Source of the DNA: Streptomyces sp. 846.5
GTDB lineage: Bacteria; Actinomycetota; Actinomycetes; Streptomycetales; Streptomycetaceae
Direction: 5' to 3'
DNA length: 64,000 nt
Assembly (NCBI RefSeq): GCF_004365705.1
Contig: NZ_SOBN01000001.1
Location: 4,574,001-4,638,000 of the forward strand
The notes beneath the pieces are model-generated. The model worked only from the letters and a program-made list of their open reading frames with translations, was not told the DNA's origin and ran no database searches. This document shows positions 11,389 through 34,945 of this stretch, one piece after another. The translations under genes were made by a program, and so were the position numbers. Positions within the stretch are counted from its first letter, which is position 1. Each line of letters begins with the position of its first letter.

Positions 11389-12564
11389 GTGCGCAGCCGA
11401 ACCCTAGCCCTCGCGTTGGTCCTAGGCCTCCTCCCCACTGGTGCGGCCCTCGCAGATGAGCAACCGCCCAGCGCCGCCCAGGTGCAAGCCGCCCAGCAGG
11501 CGGCAGCCCGCCGCGCGGGCCAGGCGGAGGCCGCGACCCGGGCCCTCGCCGCCGCGCAGGCGACCGCGCAGGCCCTGGACGTCCGGGTCGAGCAGGCCGT
11601 GGAACGGCACAACGGCGCGGTGCTGCGCCAGCAGCAGGCGGAGGCGCAGGGCGCCGAGGCCCAGCGCATGGCAGCGACGGCCGCCGCCACCGCCGATTCG
11701 GCCCGCGCTGCCGCCGCGGCACTGGCCGCGGCCCAGTACCGCGGCGATGTACAGCCCGGTCTCGCCGCCTTCGCCGGGCTGCTCTCGGCCCGCGACATGC
11801 ACGCGGCGAGCGTCCGGCGGGAGGCGGTCCGCTCGGTCGTCGACGAGACCCGCAGGGTGGTGGACACCGCGGCCGCCGCCTCCGCGGACGCGACCGCGGC
11901 CTCCGCCGTCGCGGCGCGAGCCGCCGGCGCCGCACAGGCGGCCACCGCCGAGGTGACGCAGGCTCAGCAGCAGATGCAGGCGCAGCTGACGGCCCAGCAG
12001 ACCGAGGTCGCCCGGCTCGTCGCCGAGCGCACCACCCTGCTGGCACAGCTCGCCGCCGCCCAGCAGATCTCCGTGGCCCTGGCCGCCGCCCGCCAGCAGG
12101 CCCTCGCCGAGGCCGCCGCCAGGGCGGCAGCCGACGCCGCCCGCAAGGCCGCTCTGTCGGCCGCCGCCGGCCACTCCGCCGACGCGTCCCCGTACCGCCC
12201 CGGCGACGCCTCGGCGGCCGTCAGCTTCGCCCGCGCCCAGCTCGGCCTCCCGTACGTCTGGGGCGGTGCGGGTCCGCAGACCTACGACTGCTCGGGCCTC
12301 ACCATGCGCTCCTGGCAACGCGCCGGCGTCGAGCTGCCCCACTTCGCCGCCGACCAGTACGCCCGCTCGACCCCGGTCTCCTACAGCAGTCTCCGCCCCG
12401 GTGACCTGGTCTTCTGGTCCCACGACGGCACCCCCCAGGACATCTACCACGTCGCCCTCTACCTCGGCGACGACCGGATGATCGAGGCCCCCCGCACCGG
12501 CGACGTCGTCAAGGTCGCCAGCCTCTGGATCATGGGCACCCCCAACTTCTACGCCCGCCCCTGA
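11389..12564 (+). CDS. Secreted NlpC/P60 peptidoglycan endopeptidase with coiled coil
   Basis: This 391-residue cell-wall hydrolase has a signal peptide (MRSRTLALALVLGLLPTG, cut near ALA). An Ala/Gln-rich coiled coil of about 240 residues follows, as in RipA-type proteins. The C-terminal NlpC/P60 domain has catalytic Cys in YDCSGL and His in YHVALYLG. It should cleave D-Glu-meso/LL-DAP bonds in stem peptides, with the coiled coil acting as an inhibitory or docking segment. GGAGG 8 bp before the GTG at 11389 fixes the start over a TTG at 11371 and a GTG at 11380. No other wall gene adjoins. Confidence 0.92.
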   Translation: MRSRTLALALVLGLLPTGAALADEQPPSAAQVQAAQQAAARRAGQAEAATRALAAAQATAQALDVRVEQAVERHNGAVLRQQQAEAQGAEAQRMAATAAATADSARAAAAALAAAQYRGDVQPGLAAFAGLLSARDMHAASVRREAVRSVVDETRRVVDTAAAASADATAASAVAARAAGAAQAATAEVTQAQQQMQAQLTAQQTEVARLVAERTTLLAQLAAAQQISVALAAARQQALAEAAARAAADAARKAALSAAAGHSADASPYRPGDASAAVSFARAQLGLPYVWGGAGPQTYDCSGLTMRSWQRAGVELPHFAADQYARSTPVSYSSLRPGDLVFWSHDGTPQDIYHVALYLGDDRMIEAPRTGDVVKVASLWIMGTPNFYARP

Positions 12565-12589
12565 CACCGGACCGCTACCCTGTCGTCGC

Positions 12590-13240
12590 ATGAGCCCGGA
12601 CGGCTGGTTGGCCGACACCCGTACCTCCTACGACACAGTCGCGGTCAGCTACGCCGACCAGCTGCGCCATGCGCTCGACGACAAGCCGTACCTCCGGGCC
12701 GCGCTGGCCCTGTTCGCCGAAGCGGTCCATGACGCCGGCGGCGGGCCGGTGGCGGACCTCGGATGCGGACCGGGCCACGTCACCGCCCACCTGCACAGGC
12801 TGGGCGTCGACGCGTTCGGCATCGACGTCTCGCCCGGGATGGTCGACGTGGCCCGAAGGGACCACCCCGAACTCCGGTTCGAGGTGGGCTCGATGACGGA
12901 GCTTCACCTCGCCGACGCCTCGATCGCCGGCGCACTCGCCTTCTGGTCGCTGATCCACATCCCCGACGACGAGATCCCGGCGGTCTTCGACGGCTTCATG
13001 CGGGTCCTGCGCCCCGGCGCACCCCTTCTGATCGGCTTTCACCTGGGCGACGGATCCCGTCTGAAGACCCAGGGCTACGGCGGCCACCCCATGAAGGTCC
13101 ACGTCCACCGCCGACGACCCGCCCACCTGAGCGCCTGGCTCCGCGACGCCGGCTTCACCGTCGAGACCGAGATGCTGCTCGACCCGGAGGGGAGCGCCCC
13201 GGGCGCCATTCTCTTCGCCCGAGCCGAACGCCACGGATAG
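12590..13240 (+). CDS. Class I SAM-dependent methyltransferase
   Basis: This 216-residue enzyme has the SAM-binding motif I VADLGCGPGH (about 54-63), the acidic motif II FGIDVSPGM, and motif IV/V region GALAFWSLIHI followed by LRPGAPLLIGFH. This is the Methyltransf_25/11 type, often acting on small molecules. The substrate is unknown. It starts 25 bp after the NlpC/P60 gene and ends 9 bp before the F420-type oxidoreductase, so the three may be one transcript. Confidence 0.85.
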   Translation: MSPDGWLADTRTSYDTVAVSYADQLRHALDDKPYLRAALALFAEAVHDAGGGPVADLGCGPGHVTAHLHRLGVDAFGIDVSPGMVDVARRDHPELRFEVGSMTELHLADASIAGALAFWSLIHIPDDEIPAVFDGFMRVLRPGAPLLIGFHLGDGSRLKTQGYGGHPMKVHVHRRRPAHLSAWLRDAGFTVETEMLLDPEGSAPGAILFARAERHG

Positions 13241-13249
13241 GGTGACGGT

Positions 13250-13642
13250 GTGTCCCGCTATCACGAGCTCAAGTTCCGCGCTGTGACGACGTTCCAGCGC
13301 AGGATCGCCAACCCGCTCTCCAGGCGGATGCCGAGCCAGGTCCTGCTGGAGACCAAGGGGCGGACGTCCGGGCTGCCCAGGCAGACCCCGGTCGGCGGCC
13401 GCCGGATCGAGGACGCGTTCTGGCTGGTCTCCGAGTACGGCGACAAGTCGCAGTACGTGCGGAACATCCAGGCCGACCCGCAGGTGCGAGTCCGCATCAG
13501 GGGCACCTGGTACACCGGCACCGCCCACCTGCTCCCGCAGGACGACCCCCGCGCCCGGCTCAGGACCCTCCCCCGCTACAACAGCACCGCCGTCCAGGCC
13601 TTCGGCACCAACCTGCTGACGGTCCGCATCGACCTCAGCTAG
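13250..13642 (+). CDS. Deazaflavin (F420)-dependent nitroreductase-family oxidoreductase
   Basis: This 130-residue split beta-barrel protein belongs to the DUF385/Ddn family. It has the typical LLETKGRTSGLPRQTPV strand-loop and SQYVRNIQADPQVRVRIRG, which bind F420H2 phosphate and deazaflavin. Ddn of Mycobacterium reduces quinones and activates nitroimidazoles. Here the substrate is not predictable. A GTG start at 13250 lies 9 bp after the methyltransferase stop, so the pair is likely co-transcribed. It ends just before a strong bidirectional terminator facing ppa. Confidence 0.85.
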   Translation: MSRYHELKFRAVTTFQRRIANPLSRRMPSQVLLETKGRTSGLPRQTPVGGRRIEDAFWLVSEYGDKSQYVRNIQADPQVRVRIRGTWYTGTAHLLPQDDPRARLRTLPRYNSTAVQAFGTNLLTVRIDLS

Positions 13643-13660
13643 GCCCCGCGCCCCTCACGA

Positions 13661-13707
13661 CACCGCCGCCCCGGCTCCCGTCGAACAACGGGGCCGAGGC
13701 GGCGGTG
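13661..13707. terminator. Bidirectional terminator hairpin
   Basis: A near-perfect GC stem of about 20 bp (CACCGCCGCCCCGGC... / ...GCCGAGGCGGCGGTG) lies around a short CGAACA loop, between the convergent F420-type oxidoreductase and ppa genes. Confidence 0.75.
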
Positions 13708-13733
13708 GGGCGGTGCAGCGGGCGGTGCGGCGG

Positions 13734-14228
13734 TCAGTGGGACTGGCCGGAGTCCGCGAGGCGCTTGATGGAGTTGACGATCTCCTCCTCGGCCTCGACG
13801 CGGCCGACCCAGTGGGCGCCCTCGACCGACTTGCCGGGCTCCAGGTCCTTGTAGACCTCGAAGAAGTGCTGGATCTCCAGGCGGTCGAACTCCGACACGT
13901 GGTGGATGTCGCGCAGGTGCTCCCAGCGCGGGTCCGAGGCCGGGACGCAGAGCAGCTTGTCGTCGCCGCCCGCCTCGTCGGTCATGTGGAACATGCCGAT
14001 CGCGCGGCACTTGATCAGGCAGCCGGGGAAGGTGGGCTCCTCCAGGATGACCAGGGCGTCCAGCGGGTCGCCGTCCTCACCGAGGGTGCCCTCGACGAAG
14101 CCGTAGTCGGCCGGGTAGCGCGTCGAGGTGAAGAGCATCCGGTCCAGGAAGATGCGACCAGTCTCGTGGTCGACCTCGTACTTGTTCCGCGAGCCCTTCG
14201 GAATCTCGATCGTGACGTCGAACTCCAC
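13734..14228 (-). CDS. ppa: Inorganic pyrophosphatase
   Basis: This 164-residue soluble family I pyrophosphatase hydrolyses PPi to two phosphates and so drives biosynthesis. The conserved blocks are present: [33 protein letters not shown] (metal-binding acidic cluster) and KDLEPGKSV. The GTG start at 14228 follows GGAGGAG, an ideal ribosome-binding site. It diverges from dacB, with about 97 bp of shared promoter space containing an AT-rich TTCCTATAGATG stretch. The arrangement ppa / dacB / zincin / tilS / hpt / ftsH is typical of streptomycetes. Confidence 0.97.
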
Positions 14229-31260: not shown

Positions 31261-32442
31261 TTATTTGTCGATGTCGCCGACGACGAAGAAGAGGGAGCCC
31301 AGGATCGCCACCATGTCGGCGACCAACGTGCCGGGCAGGAGCTCGCCTAGGGCCTGGATGTTGTTGTAGGAGGCCGAGCGGAGTTTCAGGCGCCATGGCG
31401 TCTTGTCGCCGCGGGAGACCAGGTAGTAGCCGTTCACGCCGAGGGGGTTCTCGGTCCAGGTGTAGGTGTGGCCCTCGGGGGCCTTCAGTACCTTGGGCAG
31501 GCGGGTGTTGATCGGTCCGGGCGCCGTCTCGGCCAGCCGGTCCAGGCACGCCTCGGCCAGGTCCAGCGAGTTGTGCACCTGGTCCAGCAGGCACTCGAAC
31601 CGGGCCAGGCAGTCGCCCTCCTGACGGGTCACCACCCGCAGCACCCCGGCCAGTTCCGGGTAGGCCAGGTAGGGCTCGTCCCGGCGCAGGTCGAAGTCCA
31701 CGCCGGAGGCCCTGGCGATCGGCCCGCTCACGCCGTAGGCGTGGACCAGCTCCGGCGCCAGCACGCCGACGCCCCGGGTGCGGGCCCGGAAGATGTCGTT
31801 GCCGAGGACCAGGTCGTCGAAGACGCCCATCCGGCCCCGGACCGCGGCGACCGTGGCGCGCACCCGTCCGTACCACCCGGCCGGCAGGTCCTCCTTGAGG
31901 CCGCCGACCCGGTTGAACATGAAGTGCATCCGGCCGCCCGAGGCCTCCTCCATCACCGACTGGAGCTGCTCGCGCTCGTGGAAGGCGTGGAAGACCGGGG
32001 TGATCCCGCCCAGCTCCAGCGGGTAGGAGCCGAGGAACATCAGGTGGTTGAGCACCCGGTTCAGCTCGGCCAGCAGGGTGCGGGTCCAGGTGGCCCGCTC
32101 GGGGACCTCCATGCCGAGCATCCGCTCCACGCCGAGGACCACGCCCAGCTCGTTGGCGAAGGCCGAGAGCCAGTCGTGGCGGTTGGCCAGCATGATGATC
32201 TGCCGGTAGTCCCTGGCCTCGAACAGCTTCTCGGCACCCCGGTGCATATAGCCGATCACCGGCTCGGCGGCGGTGATCAGCTCCCCGTCCAGCCGCAGCT
32301 TGATCCGCAGCACGCCGTGGGTGGAGGGGTGCTGCGGGCCGATGTTGAGCACCATGTCGCTGGTGCCCAGCTCGGTGGCGGCCCCGGCGCCGATCCCGAC
32401 CGTGGTCTCACGGGTGCCGCGCCCCGGCGTGCTAATCGTCAT
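31261..32442 (-). CDS. nuoD2: Stand-alone NuoD-like (49 kDa) complex I subunit
   Basis: This 393-residue homologue of the NADH-quinone oxidoreductase 49-kDa subunit, which helps form the quinone pocket, includes [14 protein letters not shown] (about 33-46), YMHRGAEKL, and the C-terminal VVGDIDK. It lies outside any nuo operon, as a second NuoD does in streptomycetes. The ATG at 32442 is preferred over a GTG at 32460. Its start overlaps the end of the MidA-like methyltransferase gene by 11 bp, so the two are translationally coupled. It may serve an alternative complex I or a hydrogenase-like module. Confidence 0.88.
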
Positions 32443-33517
32443 GAGGCAAGAGTGTGCCACCCCCGGCCCCGGCGAGATCCAGCCAGCGTCGGGGGAGCGG
32501 CATGCCGACCGACTGCAGGCCCCAGGCGAAGGAGCCGAGCCCGCCCAGGGCGGTGAGTTCGGCGGCCTCGCCCGCCGCGGCCAGGGCGCGCAGATAGCCG
32601 GCGGGGTCGCTGGACGCCTGTGCGAGCGGGGGGCGGGCGCCGGTCACGCCGAGCGCGGCCAGGGCTTCGCGCTGGGTCGCCCACAGGCTGTGGACGGTGT
32701 TCGCGGCGGCGTCCAGACAGGCGTCCAGGGCCACATGGCAGGTCAGATCGCAGGTGCCGTCCGGCACTGGGCGTACCTCGCGGCCCTCGCGGAAGGCGGC
32801 GAGGCTGCCGAAGGCCGGACGGGCAGCGGCGGTGTGGGCGTAGTCGACCGCGACCGCGAGCCCCCGGCCCAGCGAACCGACGGCCGCTGCCCAGGCCCGG
32901 TCGCGCGGGAGTCCGAGCTCGGCACGCTCGCCCGGCTCCGCGCCGTCCAGCGGCCACCAGCGGGCCAGCCAGGCCGCGTCCGCGCCGGTGACCGGGGCGC
33001 TCAGCCGCTCCTCACCGCTGCCGCGCTCCACCTCGACCAGGCGCGCGGTGCCCCCGGGGTCGACCTCGACGATGTCCACCGGCACGTTGTCCAGCCACTC
33101 GTTGGCGAACAGCACCCCGTGCGCGGCCGGCTCGATCCGGTCGCCCCAGCTGATCCAGCCCGGCAGGCCGTCCGGGCACGGAGCCCGCTCCACGGCGCGC
33201 AGCACCAGCCGGTCCGCCAGCGCGGGGCGCTCCGCGCGGGCGCGCATCCCCAGCGCGCGCAACAACTCCGCGCGCCCCGCGCCGACATCGGTCACCACCA
33301 GTTCCGCCGGACGGCCCAACGCCTCGTCGACCTCGGCCACCAGTTCCAGGACCGCTCCGGCGAACAGGTCCGCGCCGCCGGCCGAGGCATGCACGGACGT
33401 CCGGAAGTGCCCGGCGGGACCGGTCCCCGTCCGGGTGAAGAAACCGTCCGGTCCGTACAGCGCCCGTTCGGCCGCCGCACGCCACCCGCTCCACTCCGCC
33501 GCCTGCCCGCTCTCCAT
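32432..33517 (-). CDS. MidA/NDUFAF7-type SAM-dependent methyltransferase (DUF185)
   Basis: This 361-residue protein has the DUF185 Rossmann SAM-binding fold: [29 protein letters not shown] and VAVDYAHT. It belongs to the same superfamily as mitochondrial MidA/NDUFAF7, which dimethylates an arginine of NDUFS2, the NuoD homologue. Its gene overlaps the start of nuoD2 by 11 bp. That makes a modifying-enzyme and substrate relation here attractive, though it is an inference. The ATG start is at 33517. A shift of the SAM glycines (DVGAGRAEL rather than GxGxG) is typical of the family. Confidence 0.82.
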
Positions 33518-33652
33518 CGCTGCACCCTACGGGTTGGGGAGGGAAGGAGTCCGGTCGCCGTACACCCGCCGGTCGTCTCCGACCTGCGGAGGACGGCCGA
33601 CTCCGCCCGGCGGGGGACCCCGGGCCTGTTTCAGCTGCCTAGGCTGGTGACT

Positions 33653-34945
33653 GTGCAACTCCTCTACAGCTGGTTCCGCAGGCACCCCACGGTGTCCGAC
33701 GCCATCTGGGCGTCACTGCTGTTCCTGCTGTGCCTGGTGGAGCTGGCGTCCGACTGGCACAGCGACACGGCCGGGACCACGCTCCTGGGGGTCGCCTTCA
33801 TCTCGGTGACGCTGTGCACCCTGCTGGTGCTGCGCCGGCGCTGGCCGGATCTCACGGTCTGGCTGGGCACCCTGGTCGGTCTGGGCCAGATCGCCGTCCG
33901 CCAGAACCCCGGCACCGCCGACACCGCGCTGCTGATCCTCACCTACACCGCGGCGGCCTTCGCCCATGTGTGGACCTCCAGGGCCGCCCTGCTGCTGAGC
34001 TGCCTGGCCGGGCCGCTGACGTTCCTCCGGTTCGATCCCGGCGCCACCGACACCTCGCACCCGTCGATGACGGCGAACATCCTCCTCAGCCTGTTCGCCT
34101 CCACCCCCTTCCTGCTGTGCTGGGTGCTCGGCCGGTTCACCCGGATCCGCCGCGCCTACTACGTCGAGCTGGAGGACCGCGCCGCCCGGCTGGAACGCGA
34201 GCGCGACGCCCAGTCGAAGATCGCGGTGGCCGCCGAGCGGGCCCGGATCGCCCGGGAGCTGCACGATGTGGTGGCCCACAATGTCTCGGTGATGATCGTT
34301 CAGGCCGACGGCGCCTCCTACGTCATGGACTCCTCGCCCGAACAGGCGAAGCAGGCGCTGGCGACCATCGCCGGCACCGGCCGCCAGGCGCTGGAGGAGA
34401 TGCGCCGACTGCTGGGGCTGCTGCGCTCGGCCGACACCGTCGGCGAGTACGTTCCGCAGCCGGGCGTGGAGCAGCTCCCGGACCTGCTGGAGCAGGTCCG
34501 CAACGCCGGACTGCCGGTCGCGTTCACCGTGGAGGGGGAACCCCGGGAGCTGCCGCGGGGTGTCGAGCTGACGGCCTATCGGATCGTCCAGGAGGCGCTC
34601 ACCAACGCCCGCAAGCACGGCGGGCCGACGGCCAGTGCCTCGGTGCGGATCCGCTTCGACGGCCGCGGTCTGGACATGCTGATCGAGGACAACGGCCGCG
34701 GCGCCTCCGCCGAGCTGGCCCGCGACGGCGGCGAGGACGGCTTCGGGCACGGACTGATCGGGATGCGCGAGCGGGTCGGCATGGTGGGCGGCACGCTGGA
34801 CGCCGGGCCCCGCCCCGGCGGCGGCTTCCGGATCAACGCGGTGCTGCCGCTGAAGCCCGCCCGGGGCGGCCGGGACGCCCCCGCCGCGCCGCCCCCGCCG
34901 GCGGACCCCGCCCCGGCCGACTCCGCCGTCCACCTCAGCAAGTAA
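33653..34945 (+). CDS. NarL-type sensor histidine kinase
   Basis: This is a 430-residue membrane sensor. Four to five helices (residues 15-160) with short loops form an intramembrane-sensing input. They are followed by HisKA_3 (ARIARELHDVVAHNVSVM, phospho-His near H204) and an HATPase_c domain (NARKHGG, EDNGRGA, GHGLIGMRERV). A TAGGCT box (33641-33646) lies only 6 bp before the GTG at 33653, so the mRNA may be leaderless. A GTG at 33647 is the alternative. It is coupled to the response regulator 8 bp downstream. The C-terminal 35 residues are Pro/Ala-rich. Confidence 0.92.
   Translation: MQLLYSWFRRHPTVSDAIWASLLFLLCLVELASDWHSDTAGTTLLGVAFISVTLCTLLVLRRRWPDLTVWLGTLVGLGQIAVRQNPGTADTALLILTYTAAAFAHVWTSRAALLLSCLAGPLTFLRFDPGATDTSHPSMTANILLSLFASTPFLLCWVLGRFTRIRRAYYVELEDRAARLERERDAQSKIAVAAERARIARELHDVVAHNVSVMIVQADGASYVMDSSPEQAKQALATIAGTGRQALEEMRRLLGLLRSADTVGEYVPQPGVEQLPDLLEQVRNAGLPVAFTVEGEPRELPRGVELTAYRIVQEALTNARKHGGPTASASVRIRFDGRGLDMLIEDNGRGASAELARDGGEDGFGHGLIGMRERVGMVGGTLDAGPRPGGGFRINAVLPLKPARGGRDAPAAPPPPADPAPADSAVHLSK

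Follow-up and report, generated by a model that had tools for sequence, protein, structure and literature searches.

A midA–nuoD2 gene pair in Streptomyces as a probable fragment of a second complex I operon

We propose that the overlapping midA and nuoD2 genes of Streptomyces sp. 846.5 are a piece of an operon for a second complex I, one without linked nuoE, nuoF and nuoG, and that MidA is probably the dedicated assembly methyltransferase of this isozyme, with arginine 68 (R68) of NuoD2 as its target. Gene content, homology, residue states, co-occurrence and linkage lead us to this reading, to which we give a probability of about three in four. The canonical isozyme carries the arginine near N2 in NuoB1, as in Thermus, and a threonine in NuoD1; hence it offers nothing to methylate. 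The second (nuo2) isozyme carries the arginine in NuoD2, as R68, and a threonine in NuoB2, as in mitochondria. MidA would then symmetrically dimethylate R68 of NuoD2 only, before NuoD2 docks on NuoB2, and this modification might both help the N2 site to form and prevent mixing of the two isozymes.

Results

Both genes lie on the minus strand of the window, i.e. the whole stretch of 64,000 nucleotides that was analysed. The nuoD2 gene (31261..32442, ATG start, 393 aa) encodes a 49-kDa subunit, which we propose as the D subunit of the complex I lacking linked E, F and G. An alternative GTG start at 32460 gives a 399-aa frame, whose product scores 226 bits with PF00346. NuoD2 aligns to 2fug_4 over nearly its whole length (two stretches that span residues 27-399, E 3e-79) and is 39% identical to NuoD1, the gene of which lies about 155 kb away, near C1:4761121. 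The midA gene (32432..33517, minus strand) encodes a DUF185 / Methyltransf_28 methyltransferase of the MidA/NDUFAF7 family (361 aa). Its product scores 53.7 bits with PF02636, for a curated cut-off of 23.3, and it is the sole PF02636 gene found in a search of the 9.0-Mb genome. The first-pass annotation had described two genes overlapping by 11 bp. Both are indeed real and on the same strand, and midA ends inside the start of nuoD2 (32432..32442, minus strand, ATGACGATTAG); with the GTG start the overlap becomes 29 bp. On its other side a gene for a HisKA_3 sensor kinase points away from midA across a short intergenic region (window 33517-33657 and flanks). The genes flanking the pair, their names recognised by eye, are presumably of folate type on one side and panC/nadB/nadC-like on the other.

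A search by sequence with the single MidA protein of the window found no solved relative, and a profile of its relatives (A3) matches PDB 5ztz, a solved NDUFAF7 homologue, with E 6e-32. The AlphaFold model of MidA has a mean pLDDT of 92.5 and its top Foldseek matches are 4f3n, 4g67, 5ztz, 1zkd and 5zu0 (E 3e-19 to 4e-18); as modelled, the protein shares the fold of solved MidA/DUF185 proteins. We take the glycine-rich SAM-binding motif I as the reference for the stretch DVGAGRAEL, which has an alanine at the position of the third glycine, a residue conserved in at least 90% of 25 sequences (alignment A4). The NExLDNxP stretch is retained. These two features point in opposite directions when one asks whether MidA might act elsewhere, or serve NuoD2 as a non-catalytic chaperone, the arginine staying unmethylated: the altered motif I favours such a role, whereas the retained NExLDNxP speaks against it.

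NuoD2 contains the HRGXE motif, as GYMHRGAEK. Its arginine, R68 (codon 32239..32241, minus strand), is the homologue of human NDUFS2 Arg-85 and the proposed methylation site. The His-Arg of the motif is invariant across the 16 sequences of alignment A2, and NuoD1 of the same genome reads GYLHTGIEK, with threonine at the R68 position (alignment A1). The papers cited here and below by PMC number are represented by excerpts. Human NDUFAF7 performs the dimethylation of NDUFS2 Arg-85, which directly precedes Gly-86 (PMC3829151), and in Yarrowia the dimethylated R121 is part of HRGXE and sits at a distance of 3.7 A from N2 (PMC8042128). Methylation of NDUFS2 by a characterised family member (PMC3829151, PMC9006661) argues against a purely non-catalytic MidA, and a review ascribes this function to homologues in alpha-proteobacteria as well (PMC9006661). 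Bovine Arg-85 and its Paracoccus equivalent are dimethylated, and the E. coli equivalent, in NuoCD, is unmethylated (PMC3750175); the latter lends weight to the non-methylation reading. The first-pass annotation had quoted a 14-residue NuoD2 stretch, which is present, and had named R46 within it as the modified residue (GVLR; codon 32305..32307, minus strand). This assignment was wrong. The human and Yarrowia site maps to the HRGXE motif, that is to R68. R46 is not the switch residue because it is conserved in NuoD1 as well; its equivalent is found both there and in Thermus, two proteins with threonine at the switch position.

The missing arginine of Thr-type NuoD has a counterpart in NuoB. 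Thermus has a threonine at the R121 position, and R83 of Nqo6, the NuoB homologue, fills the same space (PMC8042128). NuoB1 of our strain carries this arginine (VAGRVS, for VAGRLS in Thermus chain 2fug_6) and NuoB2 carries a threonine (VSGTVT). Hence one genome encodes two isozymes with opposite switch states near N2, NuoD1-Thr with NuoB1-Arg and NuoD2-Arg with NuoB2-Thr. NuoD and NuoB pairs from single operons are complementary in 154 cases out of 154: 79 combine Arg-D with Thr-B, 75 combine Thr-D with Arg-B, and no other combination occurs. These loci are mostly from Actinomycetota, with named Bacillales, Chloroflexi, Acidobacteria, Proteobacteria and others. Rows were kept only if a histidine precedes the switch residue, and merging duplicates left 155. 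One NuoC piece (G189) was then left out, which brought the pairs to 154 and the NuoD set from 246 to 245 distinct proteins, from up to 210 genomes (the genome sets may overlap further). Thirty-two odd rows had been dropped from the pair table; they were NuoC pieces arising from a NuoCD fusion used as seed. In the tree of the 245 proteins, the 78 with threonine form one clade (support 0.96). The 154 pairs are thus not independent, and the switch represents few events, because the Thr type forms a single clade. Judging from these sequences, the exchange of the arginine between NuoB and NuoD is old and rare.

The second nuo cluster of the genome lies at about C1:4929000-4939000, besides the canonical one. 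By their own Pfam families its operon (L015) encodes A2, B2, C2, H2, J2 and K2. A Fer4 protein is assigned by order to I2, and three antiporter-type proteins likewise to L2, M2 and N2. No D, E, F or G was found among the ten genes scanned with Pfam from nuoA2 to nuoN2. The D gene is missing exactly between nuoC2 and nuoH2, since these overlap there as ATGA. Lists in the excerpts on the Streptomyces nuo2 cluster give nuoA2, B2, D2 and H2-N2, with nuoD2 apart (PMC3765725, PMC8388888). The lack of a nuoC2 that these lists would imply does not hold here, as nuoC2 is inside the operon (L015:6101-7078; PF00329, 112 bits). Adding D2 from the window yields a complete 11-subunit set, A, B, C, D and H-N, without linked E, F and G, in which D alone sits apart, together with midA. 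We therefore find the earlier label of a lone nuoD misleading: nuoD2 is no stray copy, it is the subunit absent from the nuo2 operon. We propose that it encodes the missing D of the nuo2 isozyme, with the other subunits of which its product would assemble. A third complex I-like set occurs on contig C2 of the same genome (G000, 184000-202000; L008, L011, L014, L268), where matches resembling NuoB, C, D and H were found. The one resembling NuoB has the sequence VTGPVTRN, with proline at the switch, and the one resembling D is weak (60 bits). We assume that it may be a group-4 hydrogenase-like complex.

The separate location of nuoD2 and its coding for a full-length 49-kDa subunit would also suit an alternative D that, in certain conditions, takes the place of NuoD1 in the canonical complex I of 14 subunits. 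Yet, such a swap would bring the arginines of D2 and B1 together at one site, a combination found in none of the 154 pairs, and would leave nuo2 without a D of its own. It is also at odds with other classes of the phylum, in which a NuoD of the same clade is encoded inside a nuo2-type operon beside a Thr-NuoB. We regard the swap as quite improbable.

Two loci outside the class of our strain contain midA within an operon of this type. The order in L257 is nuoA-B-C-D-H-I-J-K-L-M-N-midA, the first possible midA start being 7 bp past nuoN. Pfam families identify A, B, C, H, J, K, L, M, N and midA, D was read separately, and nuoI is an open frame identified by ferredoxin-like cysteines only. The gene order of L262 is identical; there Pfam families identify A, B, C, H, I, J, K, L, N and midA, and nuoM is an open frame only. 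Neither locus has E, F or G between nuoA and midA, and both combine a NuoD with HRG and a NuoB with threonine. Eight more genomes from other classes (G016, G069, G091, G102, G123, G156, G188, G199) have MidA and the second NuoD 7.5-8.2 kb apart, a spacing equal to that of these operons; the distance is about 20 kb in G113 and about 14 kb in G045. From this spacing and the gene order of L257 and L262 we see the window pair as a fragment of such an operon. It looks like a remnant in which the enzyme was kept beside its substrate. In L257 an additional NuoN-like frame (12080-13795, by eye) also stops shortly before the nuo2-type operon begins, and nuoD1 is about 15 kb away on the same contig, so that the two nuo operons may be in tandem.

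The first-pass annotation had proposed the phylogenetic co-occurrence of the two genes as a check. We ran it in 246 genomes of the class, with score thresholds of 400 bits for NuoD2 (A2 profile) and 56 bits for MidA (A3 profile). MidA is present in 81 of 82 genomes with NuoD2 and in 8 of 152 without it (Fisher p 3e-52, related genomes being treated as independent), which excludes that the pair never co-occurs. This table excludes twelve genomes that score in between (297-368 bits). The sequences of 11 were read (the twelfth, G445, was excluded): all have Arg and Trp, and 7 have MidA. Three loci of the eight genomes with MidA only were read. One (G436) actually has a NuoD2 with Arg and Trp, and the others (G303, G391) show no NuoD2 in the stretch read. 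With the 11 intermediates and G436, MidA is found in 89 of the 94 NuoD2 genomes of the class.

The two genes are also linked. All 83 pairs on a same contig lie within 10.9 kb; in 6 further genomes they are on different contigs. The midA gene is upstream on the same strand in 65 pairs, the matched parts being separated by 51 bp to 10.9 kb, whereas 15 pairs are convergent and 3 divergent; it is downstream of nuoD2 on the same strand in none of the 83. Among the first 32 named loci (L126-L157), MidA is within the examined flank in 28. A genome-wide search found it outside the flank in three of the other four, and the last (L141) is a 3.1-kb contig, for which the statement concerns the flank only. 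The overlap itself is not conserved: among eight named same-strand loci inspected, three (L136, L153, L154) allow an overlap of 1 to 22 bp, in four the earliest candidate nuoD2 start comes 25 to 49 bp past the midA stop and one has no candidate start near it. The translational coupling that the first-pass annotation regarded as still in place thus fits some genomes, but not those in which the genes are convergent.

One might argue that such linkage and co-occurrence are merely co-inherited and functionally meaningless, since relatedness among the genomes does not enter the counts, NuoD2 forms one clade and the surrounding genes also seem to be conserved in part. But the pair persists through the changes of orientation, and both genes vary together within families f77, f5 and f78. 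In f77 all 21 genomes are concordant, 9 with both genes and 12 with neither (two A3 matches of 20-23 bits being uncounted). Mere co-inheritance is therefore the least credible of the alternatives, with very little probability. An enzyme paired with its substrate in a variant complex I, which had been put forward from the window, would account for co-occurrence and linkage in the class and for a target arginine that NuoD2 has and NuoD1 lacks. It would also account for midA terminating operons without E, F and G in two genomes of other classes.

The association is looser across the phylum, where 107 of 246 sampled genomes have an Arg-type NuoD by score. MidA accompanies it in 70 and is lacking in 37, which is a point in favour of an unmethylated arginine. 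Among the 37, 27 score at least 460 bits with the NuoD2 profile (out of 92 genomes of the phylum at this level) and 10 score 400-451 bits. Families f16, f20, f31, f39 and f47 belong to this group: the A3 search yielded no MidA there that scores over 24 bits, and the nuoD2 operons read from them (L226-L238) encode Arg-D with Thr-B. In these families the arginine either stays unmodified or is the substrate of a different methyltransferase. In the reverse direction, 71 of the 76 MidA genomes of the phylum have an Arg-type NuoD (70 by score and G186 by reading). The five with none by score or reading are G043, G092, G178, G208 and G242; the NuoD read in G092 and G208 has threonine. MidA thus implies an Arg-NuoD far better than the reverse, as an enzyme-substrate relation allows. 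A broken MidA-like frame in G022 was found by A3 alone. About 20 genomes seemed to combine MidA with a Thr-only NuoD. We rejected this counter-example since, except for G092 and G208, they have a second NuoD that scores at least 400 bits with the NuoD2 profile, and the second copies whose sequence was read have arginine. On balance, a MidA that acts elsewhere or without catalysis seems unlikely to us, although less so than the other alternatives.

The residue after the arginine was compared with the presence of MidA at 50 of the 80 named loci. MidA is present for 40 of 43 with Arg-Gly and for none of 6 with Arg-Cys, Arg-Ala or Arg-Met; the single row with threonine has it (1/1). Yet, a rule that glycine must follow the arginine reduces to a tendency, as 12 genomes of families f15, f17, f50 and f54 combine Arg-Ala with MidA. 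Six loci have a cysteine right after the HRGXE arginine (L187, L190, L194, L202, L243, L245), and MidA was found in none of their six genomes.

NuoD2 has a further peculiarity. The quinone-binding pair is not intact: the histidine is kept (H42; Thermus H38), and tryptophan 91 (codon 32170..32172, minus strand) occupies the site of the tyrosine (Thermus Y87), by alignment with 2fug_4. We initially defined the NuoD2 type by this Trp, and the clade was then obtained from the tree of 245 NuoD proteins, in which the Trp proteins form exactly one clade (122/122, support 1.0). The tyrosine is retained in all the remaining proteins read, 78 of the Thr type and 45 of the Arg type. An excerpt of PMC8119997 describes the tyrosine with which NDUFS2 binds the head group of quinone as strictly conserved, a statement that the fixed Trp of the NuoD2 clade contradicts. 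By its sequence NuoD2 is plainly a homologue of the 49-kDa subunit, but the chemistry of the tyrosine cannot be assumed.

Discussion

If our reading is correct, a single bacterium provides a built-in control, an isozyme with the arginine and MidA against an isozyme with threonine. The NuoB/NuoD switch, without exception in the 154 pairs, would further predict which bacterial complexes I could be methylated. This matters since the effect of NDUFS2 Arg-85 dimethylation is described as unconfirmed in PMC8042128, partly because removal of NDUFAF7 also impairs assembly. The replacement of the tyrosine suggests that the function of NuoD2 is not simply that of textbook complex I. One might tentatively go further and picture two actinobacterial isozymes with opposite arginine keys, of which the methylated one would be an NADH-independent proton pump. 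Its final electron step would proceed without the tyrosine otherwise regarded as essential for reducing quinone, since Trp is fixed across the NuoD2 clade. We hold this larger picture to be possible rather than probable. If true, the Trp-bearing isozyme would either react with quinone by another chemistry or pass its electrons to another acceptor.

Among the titles and abstract starts that we searched, from a literature with few subscription journals, none joins MidA to actinobacterial NuoD or to the NuoB/NuoD switch. The closest known system is MidA/NDUFAF7 acting on NDUFS2 Arg-85 in human and Dictyostelium, which shares with ours the methyltransferase family, the fold, the HRGXE motif and the subunit. 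In these two organisms the protein is an assembly factor, whereas for Paracoccus only the modification is reported. Unlike in human and Dictyostelium, the gene of the enzyme is here linked to that of its proposed substrate, and MidA would serve only one of two isozymes, the one without a linked NADH module. The Streptomyces nuo2 cluster is the same kind of second cluster, also with nuoD2 apart. The passages available from PMC3765725 and PMC8388888 name neither nuoC2 nor a methyltransferase, whereas here nuoC2 is present and midA is beside nuoD2. Finally, the exchange between Nqo6-R83 of Thermus and R121 of Yarrowia (PMC8042128, in excerpt) is the identical NuoB-NuoD residue exchange. There it separates two species, whereas here both states are found in one genome and recur across 154 operon pairs.
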